The notes beneath the pieces are model-generated. The model was not told the origin of the DNA, ran no database searches, and was given only the letters and a program-made list of their open reading frames with translations. This document shows, piece after piece, positions 1,669-19,701 of a stretch of DNA of 64,000 nucleotides (the stretch's first letter is position 1; the number at the start of each line of letters is the position of its first letter). Location of the stretch: contig CAJTDN010000007.1 in assembly GCA_910574865.1 (NCBI GenBank), forward strand, positions 62,001-126,000, read 5' to 3'. Position numbers and translations under genes: made by a program. This DNA comes from Lachnospiraceae bacterium. GTDB taxonomy: Bacteria > Bacillota > Clostridia > Lachnospirales > Lachnospiraceae.

Positions 1669-1968
1669 GTGCGCCCGGCGGCGTACGTTTCTAACCGGTG
1701 AAAGTCTGGAATCCGCCCGGTAGTGGGAAGGATATAGCCGAAGGCAAGGGTGTCCATCGTGAGGTGGAATCTGAAGGAAGCCGGATTTCGGGGAAAATAC
1801 TAACCCGGAGGGCAAACCTCTGGTCTGACGAACAGAAACCACATACGAGGTTATGTACGAGGGTAAGGCTACAAACCAAGTCAAAGCCCGATAACTACAC
1901 GGAATCGTGCGTGGTAAATGCGGCAGATGGATGGAGGGAAAGAAACGCGTGGTATCCGGGGAGGTCTT
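1669..1968 (+). mobile_element. Truncated group II intron (5' part of ribozyme domain I onward)
   Basis: The sequence begins with the group II 5' signature GTGCG and continues with blocks I recognise from bacterial group II intron RNAs: TAACCGGTGAAAGTC, GGTAGTGGGAAGGATATAGC, GACGAACAGAAACCACATAC, and ACACGGAATCGTGCGTGG followed by TGGTATCCGGGGAGGTCT. The resemblance ends abruptly at GGAGGTCTT. No intron-encoded reverse transcriptase, domain V or 3' end follows, so this is a dead 5' fragment of about 300 bases. The long frame inside it is structural RNA sequence, not a gene. It lies directly after the rpsO terminator, a position favoured by class C introns, though the class is not established here. 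Confidence 0.8.
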
Positions 1969-2434
1969 AACCTTTTTCGTTCCCCGCGTTATCCCGTTCA
2001 AGTTCCCTCAGCCTTTCATTAATCCGTTTCGCCTCGCTTCGGTTAAACAGATAGAAGCAGAACCAGATTAGCATGAAAATGCCGCATGTGAATAAAAGCT
2101 GCAGGAGCGTGAGGGTGACGTTGCCAGGATAAAAAGGAATCCAGCCCAAACAAATGGCAACGGGATAAAAAACGCCCATCCCCACACAAAAGTGTATGAT
2201 TCTTTTGGAAAAAGAGGAAGGACGGTCAAACTGGTAGATGACGGACGTGCCGCCGCCGGCGATGCCTACCAGCATGGCGCCGGCGGACTGCCTCGCGAAA
2301 TCTTTGCAAATCAGCATTAAAATGTCCTCCCGGCCCGCAAGGGAAAAGGCCAGGCATGTAACCATGAAAAAAGTGCAGCCCAGGGAAATGCCAAATAAAA
2401 GATATTTTATTATTAATTTAGAGGTACGTTTCAT
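1967..2434 (-). CDS. DUF3021 family membrane protein
   Basis: A 155-residue protein with about four hydrophobic segments (near residues 10-30, 45-65, 80-100, 108-128) and a charged C-terminal tail (FNRSEAKRINERLRELERD). This size and layout, directly behind a LytTR regulator gene, match DUF3021. In streptococcal LytTR regulatory systems such membrane proteins restrain the partner DNA-binding protein. Its ATG overlaps the LytTR stop by four bases, implying coupled translation. Its stop codon falls exactly where the group II intron fragment breaks off, so the original 3' end may have been altered. Confidence 0.8.
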   Translation of the reverse strand: MKRTSKLIIKYLLFGISLGCTFFMVTCLAFSLAGREDILMLICKDFARQSAGAMLVGIAGGGTSVIYQFDRPSSFSKRIIHFCVGMGVFYPVAICLGWIPFYPGNVTLTLLQLLFTCGIFMLIWFCFYLFNRSEAKRINERLRELERDNAGNEKG

Positions 2435-2880
2435 TCTAATCCCAACCTTTCTTTGAAATTTTTACGAAAACGTCTGGAAATATAATCCGTGATGCCGTTT
2501 TTCATTACCAGTTCCATTGTCCCGTTAAAACTTGCTTCCACGTGATGAATTTGGTTGATATTGGCAATCGCCGATTTTGAAATGCGGACGAAGTTGGCGT
2601 CAAGCGTGTTTTCCAGCTCATACAAGGGCTTGTCCAGTCCATATCTGTTTTTTAGCCTGTCGTAACAGATGATGTCCCTGCCCTCGGCACGTATTAACGA
2701 GATGTCTTCCGGTTTGATGAAATAGGTTTTTTTGTCTTTTGCCGCGACCAATGCCGGGGAATTCGCGTTTTCTTTTTCCAGCATGGAAATGATTTCCGCA
2801 ATCGTCCCGGTCATTTTGTTTATGTGAAGCACCGCGTAGGGTTCTTTATAGGCCGTGCTGATTTTGCATTCCACTCTCAT
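2431..2880 (-). CDS. LytTR-type DNA-binding transcriptional regulator
   Basis: A 149-residue regulator made of a short N-terminal segment and a LytTR DNA-binding domain over about residues 50-148 (IKPEDISLIRAEGRDIICYD, LDANFVRISKSAIANINQI, GITDYISRRFRKNFKERLG). It has no receiver domain, as in stand-alone LytTR/DUF3021 pairs. The start chosen is the ATG eight bases after GGAGG; a GTG two codons earlier is too close to that site. It is divergent from an ABC exporter, the classical target arrangement, and probably controls both its own operon and the exporter. Confidence 0.88.
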   Translation of the reverse strand: MRVECKISTAYKEPYAVLHINKMTGTIAEIISMLEKENANSPALVAAKDKKTYFIKPEDISLIRAEGRDIICYDRLKNRYGLDKPLYELENTLDANFVRISKSAIANINQIHHVEASFNGTMELVMKNGITDYISRRFRKNFKERLGLE

Positions 2881-9080: not shown

Positions 9081-9176
9081 AACTCTCCGGGGATGCGCAT
9101 TTCGCGCCTAAGGAAAGCGGCTGCTGACGCAGCCACACTCCGGCGCGGGAGTTACGCTTGCGAAACACTTTTTTAG
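9081..9176. repeat. Dispersed multi-hairpin repeat, copy 1
   Basis: Starts CTCCGGGGATGCGC and contains small stems GCGC/GCGC, GGCTGC/GCAGCC (loop TGAC), ACTCC/GGAGT and an imperfect GTTaCGC/GCGaAAC at the end; the outer AACTC can also pair with GAGTT. Related copies lie near 20731, 40489 and 42588. It fills the space between the convergent GH3 gene and the AraC remnant and may serve as a terminator. Confidence 0.65.
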
Positions 9177-9601
9177 TGCCTTTTCCGGTACTCCTTGGGC
9201 GTCATCTTAAACCTGGCATAAAATTTGCTATAAAAGGAGGCCGTGCTTTTGTAGCCGATGGAGGCTGAGATTTCCTCGATGGAATCCGCCGTAAGCAGGA
9301 GAAGGTTGCATGCCCTCTGCAGGCGGATGTCGGTCACGAGTTCCAGAAACGTATGGTTTGTCCGTTTCTTTACAATCGTGGGGAAATAATTTTTATGGTA
9401 GCCAAAATGCGTCGCGGCAAGTTCCATGCTGATGTCGGTCATGTGGTCCGTGATAAACGCGATGAGTTCTTGGACGAACGGGGAAGAATGGTTTTTCTGA
9501 AGGTCGAGCAGGCCAACAAGGAACTGGACAAGGCAGCCGGAAAGTAAAGAAAAGTACCGGGAAGACGGCTGATTCAAAAAGGGCGGCGTGTTTTGTTTCA
9601 C
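9173..9601 (-). pseudogene. AraC family regulator, C-terminal remnant
   Basis: About 142 codons remain. They encode both helix-turn-helix units of an AraC/XylS DNA-binding domain (MELAATHFGYHKNYFPTIVK and IEEISASIGYKSTASFYSKF, ending MTPKEYRKR) plus some linker. The N-terminal sensor half, about 150 residues in relatives, is missing. The only possible start, a GTG, has no ribosome site and lies inside the stem of an intrinsic terminator reading the same way, and a stop codon lies just upstream. The break coincides with the palindromic element at 9609, suggesting that element's arrival or a linked deletion removed the 5' half. A small functional HTH protein is possible but unlikely. Confidence 0.7.
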
Positions 9602-9607
9602 GCCGCC
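9576..9607 (-). terminator. Intrinsic terminator, leftward
   Basis: Perfect 9-bp stem GGCGGCGTG/CACGCCGCC with an 8-base loop, followed on the minus strand by CTTTTT. It would end leftward transcripts crossing the three-branched element next to it and would cut off transcription into the AraC remnant. Confidence 0.65.
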
Positions 9608-9608
9608 T

Positions 9609-9887
9609 TAGCGTCGGTGTACGGAGGGCAACACGCCTCAGCCCATGTGATTTCAAGGGTTTTCAGCGTCATCTTCAATCGGCGTACGTCCTTGTACGCC
9701 TCATTCATCTTTCTTGAAAACCCTTGAAATCCCTATGGGTGAGGTCGCAGAGTCGTGAAGAGGCATATTTCCCCCCTTTCAAGGCACTTGAGCGACGCGT
9801 ACAAGGACGTACGCGGAGTGAAAGTAACGACGAAAGGGGGGAAATATGCCCTTCATCGACCGTGTTGCCTTCTGTACACCGACGCTA
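9609..9887. repeat. 279-bp three-way-junction palindromic element
   Basis: Every part pairs. The outer stem is 27 bp (TAGCGTCGGTGTACGGAGGG onward, with its complement at 9861-9887); its two mismatches are G-T, so it is fully paired as plus-strand RNA. Branch A (9636-9744) has a perfect 17-bp core (9649-9665 with 9715-9731), outer pairings CCTCA/TGAGG and CCCAT/ATGGG, and a tip GGCGTAC-GTCCTT-GTACGCC. Branch B (9752-9860) has a perfect 17-bp core (9764-9780 with 9832-9848) plus flanking pairs and a tip GCGTAC-AAGGAC-GTACGC. Loops GTCCTT and AAGGAC are exact complements. No protein frame is credible here. It may be a structured RNA or a non-autonomous mobile element; a collapsed relative lies at 42286. 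Confidence 0.8.
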
Positions 9888-9932
9888 TCCTTGCTGTTTA
9901 CAGAGATTGTTTTGAATTTATAAAAGTTTTCG

Positions 9933-9961
9933 TTGCACTTGTAACTACCCCGTGTTATAAT
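9933..9961 (+). promoter_or_regulatory. Promoter of pnp
   Basis: TTGCAC, 17 bases, perfect TATAAT, about 400 bases before the pnp start, implying a long leader. It overlaps a weaker candidate minus-strand promoter (GTTACA at 9940-9945, TATAAA at 9917-9922) that would read the palindromic element. Confidence 0.7.
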
Positions 9962-9967
9962 GATAAA

Positions 9968-10367
9968 GCTTGTGGGTCGGGACAAGATTCCGGGACCACT
10001 GAAAAGCATGTCAATTTGCCTTTTCTGTACATGGTGTATGGTGCCATGTGTTCTGCCACATGGATGCCGTTCGGTAAAGTGACGGTGTTGATGGGCGTGT
10101 TTTTCAGTAGTTTCGGACGTTTTCCCCCTTGCAGGCATAACGAAACACCCATGTCGCTTGACGGCGACACAACCACGAGTAAAAGTCGATTGCTTCGTGC
10201 AAAGCACTCTCGCAATCGCCACCCGCGTTCTTGGGTTCGGGCTATCGCCCTACTTGTTCATACGGGTTAGCCCGTCCGACGTCGAAACGAATATGCAAGC
10301 TAGCTTGCATTCGTTTCGATGCCGGACGGGACTTTTACGGTAAATACCAGACAAAAAGGAGAAAACG
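9968..10367 (+). promoter_or_regulatory. Long structured 5' leader of pnp
   Basis: About 400 nt without a credible gene, packed with hairpins: CCATGTG/CACATGG (10044-10063), GTCGC/GCGAC (10153-10168), GATTGC/GCAATC enclosing GTGC/GCAC (10188-10217), and a roughly 27-bp hairpin at 10271-10330. The last has one mismatch, one G-U and a two-base bulge and ends GGACGGGACTTTT, 34 bases before AAAAAGGAG and the ATG. In E. coli, PNPase represses itself through RNase III cleavage of a leader hairpin. The big stem fits a similar role, or attenuation, but this is inference. Confidence 0.55.
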
Positions 10368-12455
10368 ATGTTTAAACAGTATGAGATGGAACTTGCGGGG
10401 AGAACCCTGCGGGTTGACGTGGATCGCGTGGCCAAGCAGGCGAACGGCGCGGTATTGATGCATTATGGGGATACGACCGTGCTTTGTACGGCGACCGCGT
10501 CCGAAAAGCCGAGGGACGGGATTGATTTTTTCCCGTTAAGCGTGGAGTACAACGAGAGGATGTATTCCGTCGGCAAGATTCCGGGCGGATTTAACAAGAG
10601 GGAGGGCAAGGCCTCGGAGAACGCGGTGTTGACCGACCGTGTCATCGATCGCCCGATGCGCCCCTTGTTCCCGAAGGATTATCGTAACGACGTGACGTTG
10701 GAAAACCTCGTCATGTCCGTGGACCAGGACTGCAGCCCGGAGCTGACCGCCATGCTGGGGGCGGCCATCGCGGTGAGCATTTCCGACATCCCGTTTGACG
10801 GGCCGATTTCCACCACGCAGGTGGGGTTGGTGGACGGCGAGCTGGTGTTCAACCCGACGGCGGTACAGAAGCTGGTGTCTGACATGGCGTTGACCGTGGC
10901 TTCCACGAGGGAGAAGGTCATCATGATTGAGGCCGGGGCCAACGAGATACCGGAAAACCGCATGATTGAGGCCATTTTCGCCGCGCATGAGGTAAACCAG
11001 AAGGTCATCGCTTTCGTGGACAAGATTGTCGCCGAGTGTGGCAAGCCGAAGCATGAATATGCGAGTTGTGCGATTCCAGAAGAGCTGTTCGCGGCCATCA
11101 AGGAAATCGTGCCTCCGCAGGAGATGGAGGAGGCCGTCTTTACGGACGACAAGCAGACGAGGGAGGAGAACATCCGCCAGATTACGGCCAAGTTGGAAGA
11201 GGCGTTCGCGGAAAATGAAGAGTGGCTCGCCGTGCTTTCCGAGGCGGTTTACCAGTACCAGAAAAAGACGGTGCGCAAGATGATCCTGGTTGACCATAAG
11301 CGTCCGGACGGGCGCGCCATCGACCAGATTCGTCCGCTGGCGGCAGAAGTCGACCTGATTCCGCGGGTGCATGGTTCGGCCATGTTCACACGTGGGCAGA
11401 CGCAGATTTGTACCGTGACGACGCTTGCCCCGCTTTCCGAAGCACAGAGGCTGGACGGCCTGGACGAGGCGGAAACCTCCAAGAGATACATGCACCACTA
11501 TAATTTCCCGTCCTATTCGGTCGGCGAGACGAGGCCGTCGAGAGGGCCGGGAAGACGTGAAATCGGACATGGCGCGTTGGCGGAGCGGGCGTTGATTCCG
11601 GTATTGCCGAACGAGGAAGAGTTCCCGTACGCGATTCGCACGGTTTCCGAGACGTTCGAGTCCAACGGCTCCACGTCGCAGGCGAGCATCTGTGCGTCCA
11701 GCATGTCCCTGATGACGGCCGGCGTGCCGATCAAGGCGGCGGTGGCGGGTATTTCCGCCGGACTGGTGACGGGCGAGAGTGACGACGACTACCTGGTACT
11801 GACCGACATCCAGGGGCTGGAAGACTTCTTTGGCGACATGGATTTCAAGGTGGCCGGTACGCACAAAGGTATCACGGCCATCCAAATGGACATCAAGATT
11901 CATGGTTTGACACGCCCGATTATCGAGGAGGCGATTGCCGCGACCAAGAAGGCGAGGACGTACATCCTCGACGAGGTCATGGGCAAGGCCATTGCCGAGC
12001 CGAGGCCGGAGGTCGGCCCGTACGCGCCGAAGATCATGCAGATGCAGATTGACCCGCAGAAGATTGGTGACGTGGTCGGCCAGCGCGGCAAGACCATCAA
12101 CGCGATTATCGACCAGACCGGCGTGAAGATTGACATCAACGACGACGGTTTCGTGTCGATTTGCGGCACGGAGAGGGAGATGATGGAAGAGGCGATGAAG
12201 CTGGTCACCATCATCGTGACCGATTTCGAGGCGGGACAGGTGTTCGAAGGAAAGGTGGTCAGCATCAAGGAGTTTGGCGCGTTTATCGAGTTCGCGCCGG
12301 GCAAGGAAGGCATGGTGCACATTTCCAAGATTTCCAAGAAGAGAATTGACAAGGTTGAGGACGTTTTGGCCGTTGGAGACAAGGTGAAGGTCGTCTGCAT
12401 GGGCAAGGACAAGATGGGAAGATTCAGCTTTAGCATGCGCGACGTGGCAGAGTAA
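10368..12455 (+). CDS. pnp: Polyribonucleotide nucleotidyltransferase
   Basis: A 695-residue PNPase of normal length, the phosphorolytic 3'-5' exoribonuclease that degrades mRNA and trims RNAs in the cytoplasm. Domains in order are RNase PH 1 (about 10-140), a helical linker, RNase PH 2 (about 310-540, with FPSYSVGETRPSRGPGRREI), KH (about 550-610, IGDVVGQRGKTINAI) and S1 (about 620-690, VFEGKVVSIKEFGAFIEF). AAAAAGGAGAAAACG precedes the ATG. It has its own promoter, long leader and terminator, and is not linked to rpsO as in many relatives. Confidence 0.97.
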   Translation: MFKQYEMELAGRTLRVDVDRVAKQANGAVLMHYGDTTVLCTATASEKPRDGIDFFPLSVEYNERMYSVGKIPGGFNKREGKASENAVLTDRVIDRPMRPLFPKDYRNDVTLENLVMSVDQDCSPELTAMLGAAIAVSISDIPFDGPISTTQVGLVDGELVFNPTAVQKLVSDMALTVASTREKVIMIEAGANEIPENRMIEAIFAAHEVNQKVIAFVDKIVAECGKPKHEYASCAIPEELFAAIKEIVPPQEMEEAVFTDDKQTREENIRQITAKLEEAFAENEEWLAVLSEAVYQYQKKTVRKMILVDHKRPDGRAIDQIRPLAAEVDLIPRVHGSAMFTRGQTQICTVTTLAPLSEAQRLDGLDEAETSKRYMHHYNFPSYSVGETRPSRGPGRREIGHGALAERALIPVLPNEEEFPYAIRTVSETFESNGSTSQASICASSMSLMTAGVPIKAAVAGISAGLVTGESDDDYLVLTDIQGLEDFFGDMDFKVAGTHKGITAIQMDIKIHGLTRPIIEEAIAATKKARTYILDEVMGKAIAEPRPEVGPYAPKIMQMQIDPQKIGDVVGQRGKTINAIIDQTGVKIDINDDGFVSICGTEREMMEEAMKLVTIIVTDFEAGQVFEGKVVSIKEFGAFIEFAPGKEGMVHISKISKKRIDKVEDVLAVGDKVKVVCMGKDKMGRFSFSMRDVAE

Positions 12456-19525: not shown

Positions 19526-19701
19526 GGCCGGGGGATGATTACGGATTGTTTCGCCGCAAGCAGCTTTCACAATCCTGCCCGCAATTCGGATTCCCATGGG
19601 GCTTCGCCCACTTCATCCTCATTGTGGGGCGTGTTATAAAGTCTGTTCCCACTGATATGCAAGCATATCGTGGGGAAATAACACTGTAATCAATATTTTT
19701 G

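Follow-up and report, generated by a model that had tools for sequence, protein, structure and literature searches.

A TA-bounded folded repeat of Lachnospiraceae, probably a non-autonomous transposon formed by an inverted pair of one conserved hairpin module

The DNA analysed here, referred to as the window, is a 64,000-nucleotide stretch of the genome of a Lachnospiraceae bacterium. Between an ORF for an AraC-type regulator (9173-9601, minus strand) and pnp (10368-12455, plus strand) it contains a 279-bp element that starts and finishes with TA and is organized as follows.

9609..9887, no strand assigned: complete 279-bp element, from TA to TA, with the same ends in 37 full-length copies.
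9609..9635, plus strand: left terminal inverted repeat, the left half of the outer stem (27 nt, 93% complementary); its first TA is the presumed target duplication.
9636..9744, minus strand: branch A hairpin, whose purine tip reads on the minus strand (from fold and covariation).
9667..9716, minus strand: conserved GA tip A, 58 nt from the minus-strand 3' end, which is the left end of the window element (from tip alignment and spacing).
9745..9751, plus strand: junction segment between the branches, within GGTCGnnGAGTC, kept in most aligned homologues (from fold and alignment).
9752..9860, plus strand: branch B hairpin, whose purine tip reads on the plus strand (from fold and covariation).
9780..9829, plus strand: conserved GA tip B, 58 nt from the plus-strand 3' end, which is the right end of the window element (from tip alignment and spacing).
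9861..9887, plus strand: right terminal inverted repeat, the right half of the outer stem; its last TA is the presumed second copy of the duplication (from arm complementarity and copy ends).

A terminator-like hairpin (9582-9607, minus strand) stops one base short of the element. Elsewhere, the window holds a match to the group II intron model D1-D4-3 (RF02001, 129.6 bits) at 1753-1950 (plus strand) and two Clostridiales-1 RNAs (RF01699, both on the minus strand), at 10180-10337, near the element, and at 19536-19692. The same RNA occurs twice near a homologous element in genome G014 (locus L033, 902-1037 and 1158-1310, minus strand), within approximately 410 bp; given two copies per stretch, it may also be repeated.

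A previous, sequence-only reading of this DNA had proposed a three-way junction with 27-bp outer arms, two branches and a 7-nt gap between them, all of which we recovered at the same coordinates. Both mismatches of the outer stem (27 nt at 93%) are G-T, as it claimed, and are paired in the RNA fold; the arm of branch A spans 30 nt at 83% and the core of branch B 19 nt at 100%. With RNA parameters, the 279 bp fold at -174 kcal/mol versus -83.8 ± 4.7 in 200 shuffles (z -19.2), and with DNA parameters at -97.4 (z -16.8); none of the 200 shuffles folded as well with either set. The fold is, hence, real. That reading did not note that the two tips are inverted copies of one another (76% over 59 nt). 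The tip loops of the window copy, GTCCTT and AAGGAC, are indeed complementary, which had led to the idea that they kiss; such complementarity is, however, expected because the two tips are inverted copies, and it is lost in the homologue from G010, with the non-complementary loops GTCCA and AGAGAC. The idea is thus weakened, and we discarded kissing loops as independent evidence for a device.

The genome of origin (5.33 Mb in 82 contigs, 96% complete) contains at least 37 full-length copies of the element, 95-100% identical and dispersed at different sites. These, together with three partial copies (94-100%), came from the 40 candidates scored out of 143 found at first look, so copy counts are lower bounds. 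The left end was TAGCG in all 31 copies whose flanks were read, and the right end GCTA in 30 of them and GCTT in the remaining one. Flanks differed among these 31 copies, save for two (L014 and L027) in which a second element end adjoins the copy, with one TA shared between them, an arrangement that suggests insertion into or beside an existing end. Short, gene-less, dispersed and bordered by terminal inverted repeats (279 bp, 27-bp arms), the element agrees in these respects with a TA-type MITE.

For the 31 copies we also fused the left and right flanks, once keeping one TA and once omitting it, and compared the open frames across the join. The shorter side of the frame was longer with the TA in 18 copies and without it in 13. 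A clear case is L009, with 688 + 911 nt open with the TA versus 517 + 50 without it; L028 (296 + 502 versus 135 + 93) and L008 (192 + 702 versus 199 + 116) likewise speak for the TA, and the long frame of L004 resembles an antisense reading. Downstream of the element, L009 shows a BREX PglZ match from profile position 379; at E <= 1, PglZ was not matched by the 57 residues directly preceding the element, and a frame at 1777-2445 (minus strand), which opens as BREX PglX, closes immediately upstream of the element with a tail lacking any match, so this BREX locus is already rearranged. No empty site was seen among the loci read. Duplication of the TA upon insertion is likely, mainly because almost all copies have TA at each end and because of the CTAG context of relatives described below.

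Matches to the element occurred in 6 of 98 genomes, including its own, with full-length homologues at 73-77% identity in genomes G010, G014 and G039, and more from G370. We aligned 16 elements (alignment A4, superseding alignment A3, which held one internally deleted row) on the structure of the window copy, a choice that favours this structure. In this alignment 93.5% of 1691 cells were paired, compared with only 35-44% for slid structures, both partners had changed in 38 of 107 pairs, and covariation scored 0.307 versus 0.138 in shuffles, none of 500 reaching as high. The count of further pair types (67 versus 77.5, below every shuffle) was the sole measure not favouring the fold. As judged from these homologues, pairing is maintained by compensatory change and the stems themselves are not conserved. 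The sequence-only reading had considered both a structured RNA and a folded non-autonomous mobile element; the dispersed, sharp-ended copies, together with the compensatory changes in homologues, strongly support the mobile element. The comparisons thus reveal a multicopy, dispersed, sharp-ended element whose fold is kept by compensatory change.

The part that recurs most widely is the hairpin tip. A covariance model built from 13 hairpins of five genomes, a search that the earlier reading had also proposed, detected the tip in 41 of the 392 genomes searched within the order, representing 26 of 174 genera, counts that include the own genome and some training genomes; 11 candidates were scored per genome, and copy numbers are minima. 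An exact tip pattern yielded at least 120 matching stretches in named genomes. Among the matches listed, Bacillota were represented by Lachnospiraceae, Selenomonadaceae, Pelosinus, Peptococcaceae and Syntrophomonadaceae, and actinomycetes by Streptomyces, Actinacidiphila, Microbacterium and Propionibacteriaceae; no viral contig matched the pattern. The tip is shared by one-hairpin elements of approximately 163 bp across Bacillota and Actinomycetota. A second model, run on 15 genomes chosen as tip carriers, gave at least 116 matches in Streptomyces sp. NBC_01481 and at least 1 to 43 in the others. A 191-base Streptomyces query, comprising most of an element and some flank, matched 43 plasmid records, all from Streptomyces, and no phage record; the window element had no credible match among plasmid records (2 records, E 0.8). 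In one genome assembled as a single contig (G359 C1; loci L101, L275 and L276), some tip elements form part of larger composite structures that contain additional inverted segments. We found no description of this tip in the open literature that the search covered. A set of 3161 structured RNAs from human microbiomes includes 250 palindromic candidates (PMC8040213), and some tip elements may be among them, unnamed.

In 52 aligned rows the tip is nearly invariant, with a purine-rich strand and tandem G.A mismatches. The purine strand reads CAAGGC-nnn-GA-nn-GA, followed by a variable stem and loop and then GA-nn-GA-nnn-AACG. Of these rows, 36 came from a pattern that fixes loop bases and leaves inner and outer stems free, so the identity of their loops results from selection of the rows. 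Either G.A or A.G occupies tip positions 27-61 and 32-56 in 50 of the 52 rows, and 28-60 and 31-57 in 51; at 24-65 and 25-63, G.A is sometimes swapped for C-G and T-A, and 26-62 swaps among G-C, T-A, C-G and A-T. The tip structure paired 86.8% of cells versus 61.3% in shuffles, with 312 doubly changed cells versus 100.5, and 22 of 24 Watson-Crick pairs showed double changes versus 19.5 (15 of 500 shuffles were as high). The conserved part is the hairpin tip, while stems and ends turn over.

The tip also lies at a fixed distance from one end. From 122 pattern matches we selected the 43 with CTAG at both ends and matching arms (search range 45-75). Every one of the 43 had the 3' end of its tip (AACG) either 57 nt (25 elements) or 58 nt (18 elements) from the element's end; the 5' side measured 55-58 nt and the total length 161-165 bp, and sequence divergence among the left arms was high (a median of 48% identity over 360 pairs of equal length). 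The window element shows a distance of 58 nt at either end, between the end of tip B and the right end on the plus strand and, on the minus strand, between that of tip A and the left end; it therefore corresponds to two right-hand modules facing each other, with one purine tip per strand. With looser end criteria, under which some ends were called too far in, 37 of 71 one-hairpin TA-ended elements were in a C-TA-G context. By these comparisons, the shared tip and spacing define a one-hairpin family of approximately 163 bp in Bacillota and Actinomycetota, around half of whose members with callable ends lie in CTAG. In Streptomyces sp. NBC_01481, 20 of the at least 116 copies were read, and their interior was nearly constant; the terminal approximately 18 bp existed in several versions (TAGGGCCTGTCGTTTGG, TAGGTCCTGTCCGGTCG and TAGGGGGTGTCTTTTGG), both arms having changed together in those. 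These versions may be adaptations to different transposases.

On the purine strand, G.T mismatches exceed A.C mismatches 87 to 29 in the 52 rows (binomial p 6e-8, relatedness ignored), an excess that stems from the 36 rows found by pattern (76 to 20); in the other 16 the ratio is 11 to 9, with 2 to 2 in eight two-hairpin arms and 9 to 7 in the remaining eight. Of the two strands, the purine one forms the better fold at 95 of 98 pattern loci with RNA parameters and at 98 of 98 with DNA parameters. Tip orientation with respect to flanking genes is random, with 18 in the same and 19 in the opposite direction at 37 codirectional sites (from the 122 matches, after dropping 39 at contig edges and 15 within long ORFs). 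Given the strand bias and the random orientation, the fold therefore appears to be selected on one strand, and not within the messages of its neighbours. The earlier suggestion of a structured RNA retains some basis, in that a single strand seems to be the one that folds, yet it gains no support from the orientation, which is random, or from Rfam, which produced no match, either over the element at the gathering threshold or over the tips of 12 chosen relatives' loci at E <= 1. In a fuller version of this alternative, the mobile element would carry a structured RNA under selection, transcribed from the purine strand, whose tip binds a protein or another factor. The apparent strand-specific selection, the better folding with RNA parameters and the tolerance of wobble pairs would suit an RNA well; however, the G.T excess rests on the pattern-found rows, the purine strand is also the better one with DNA parameters, the orientation to flanking genes is random, and no sigma-70-like promoter appears in 9500-10400 (0.7 expected) and no Rfam family covers the element, so we consider this explanation unlikely.

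Many copies have decayed. Besides full-length copies, the own genome contains many incomplete end matches, consisting of single ends, mostly right ends, followed by unrelated sequence, as well as 40-70-bp hairpins built of both ends. We found 112 end matches in G010 and 73 in G014 (9 and 0 in the control), and many of those listed were paired approximately 45-80 bp apart. At an insertion site shared by two genomes (L080 in G370 C6 and L081 in G039 C77), the element is full in G039, whereas in G370 the inner part of branch B has been lost, a natural deletion inside the palindrome. Such remnants are what an unstable palindrome would leave, and fit an alternative in which the tip has no function: copying templated by the hairpin during replication would keep the stems palindromic, the tip only keeping the centre of the palindrome unpaired. 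The abundance of single ends and short hairpins and the partial loss of branch B in G370 agree with it, and template switching can change both arms together. Nevertheless, it does not explain why tips are near-identical across two phyla, why G.A mismatches persist in 50-51 of 52 rows, why there are compensatory swaps within the tip (G-C, T-A and C-G at 26-62), or the 57-58-nt spacing, and we find it improbable.

IS630 elements prefer CTAG as target. Two 1.27-1.28-kb elements with an IS630 transposase (L240 in G418 and L238 in G039) are both inserted in C-TA-G. The ends of two tip elements, L171 and L209, match the ends of these IS630 copies at 19-21 of 25 positions, compared with at most 16 of 25 in 200 shuffles (181 candidate ends); hence, part of the tip family probably uses IS630-type transposases, elements of this kind inserting at TA with a 2-bp duplication (PMC2170065). 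No tip was detected within either of these IS630 copies. The DDE_3 profile (IS630) was detected at E <= 1e-5 in 12 of the 41 tip genomes versus 48 of 351 others (Fisher p 0.019, relatedness ignored), an enrichment, yet 29 of the 41 tip genomes of the order lack it, and we rejected IS630 as a universal requirement. It had no match in the own genome nor in G442, which carries L171, and was present in two of six carrier genomes searched. Two further associations were discarded: an IS630 end match beside L093 in G067 belongs to an adjacent piece and not to the tip element's own end, and the ends of the tip element in G418 are unlike those of the IS630 of that genome.

A search for autonomous partners gave no transposase enclosed by paired ends among the places listed (none were listed for G001 and G002). 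Paired ends 1.76 kb apart in G000 C10 enclose a 525-residue ORF and others, and paired ends 1.9 kb apart in G014 C10 enclose two unrelated ORFs, in both cases with no transposase recognised on inspection by eye. Streptomyces ends led to five plasmid stretches without a listed transposase, one of them unannotated. Likewise, no protein was found recurring beside tips: the 25 neighbour clusters listed show no transposase, the largest (21 loci) being ATP-binding-cassette-like and all others containing at most 6 loci. Mobilization of the folded strand by single-strand transposition, with an HUH/Y1 enzyme as in REP-RAYT systems, is very improbable, since, although a one-strand hairpin at a fixed distance from the end resembles the logic of IS200/IS605 and REP elements, only three partial Y1_Tnp matches, in short or broken frames, were found in the own genome, TA lies at both ends, and the ends of two relatives are also those of DDE transposons.

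Altogether, we interpret the element as a MITE, a non-autonomous transposon targeting TA, in which one conserved folded module occurs twice in inverted orientation; IS630/Tc1-mariner-type mobilization and a signal in the tip are the inferred parts of this view, which we regard as probable. Each module is a hairpin whose purine-rich, tandem-G.A tip lies 57-58 nt before the 3' end of the strand on which it reads. A DDE transposase of the IS630/Tc1-mariner type, acting in trans, would cut at the TA ends, and the excised element would be pasted into a new TA. The tip, folded on one strand, might constitute the conserved signal for mobilization or for a host factor aiding movement or persistence, while the ends would be free to change to suit different transposases. 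More tentatively, and with greater doubt than conviction, these elements could form a mobile superfamily across phyla, defined by the one-strand folded tip rather than by terminal repeats; here a fixed 57-58-nt ruler would lead to the cut TA, the tip would license movement, the terminal approximately 20 bp would be exchanged to borrow transposases, and the window form, with one tip per strand, could be used from either strand or end.

Bacterial MITEs are usually taken as worn-down transposons without a conserved interior, and here the interior is the conserved part. From this follows a testable claim about what recognizes a folded DNA or RNA when bacterial elements transpose, as well as an explanation for a group of palindromic repeats of Lachnospiraceae and Streptomyces that we did not find named. 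Additionally, the covariance model finds these elements where sequence search is weak.

Among known systems, REPs and REPINs with their RAYTs are likewise palindromic repeats scattered over the genome, with some of them presumed to be mobilized in trans, but REPs are 20-40 bp long, with a GTAG or CGTC tag, and predominantly proteobacterial (PMC3733652). The elements described here are approximately 163-279 bp long with TA ends, and no intact Y1 transposase was found in the own genome; with length and ends differing and Y1_Tnp matches partial only, we rejected their membership in this group. The CIR elements of Caulobacter and Brucella, compared by description only, similarly have two hairpin arms and a linker, with a conserved motif exposed at the loop; however, their motif is GANTC and the arms are described without an enclosing 5'-3' stem (PMC2229807), whereas in the window element a 5'-3' stem closes the three-way junction. 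Correia/NEMIS and ERIC, also compared by description only, are small MITEs whose transcripts fold into long stem-loops, and TA is listed at the termini of Correia/NEMIS, but the hosts listed for them are Neisseria and enterobacteria (PMC2229807). The RUP of Streptococcus pneumoniae, for which mobilization by IS630-Spn1 has been proposed, is like the window element in being short and gene-less, with inverted repeats and a TA-containing target, and its ends resemble those of an IS630 transposon; unlike it, RUP has no conserved G.A tip or cross-phylum module in the sections of its description consulted (PMC2229807). For the window element, in turn, no IS630 partner of its own was found, and it differs from RUP in being a dimer of inverted modules that folds into a three-way junction.
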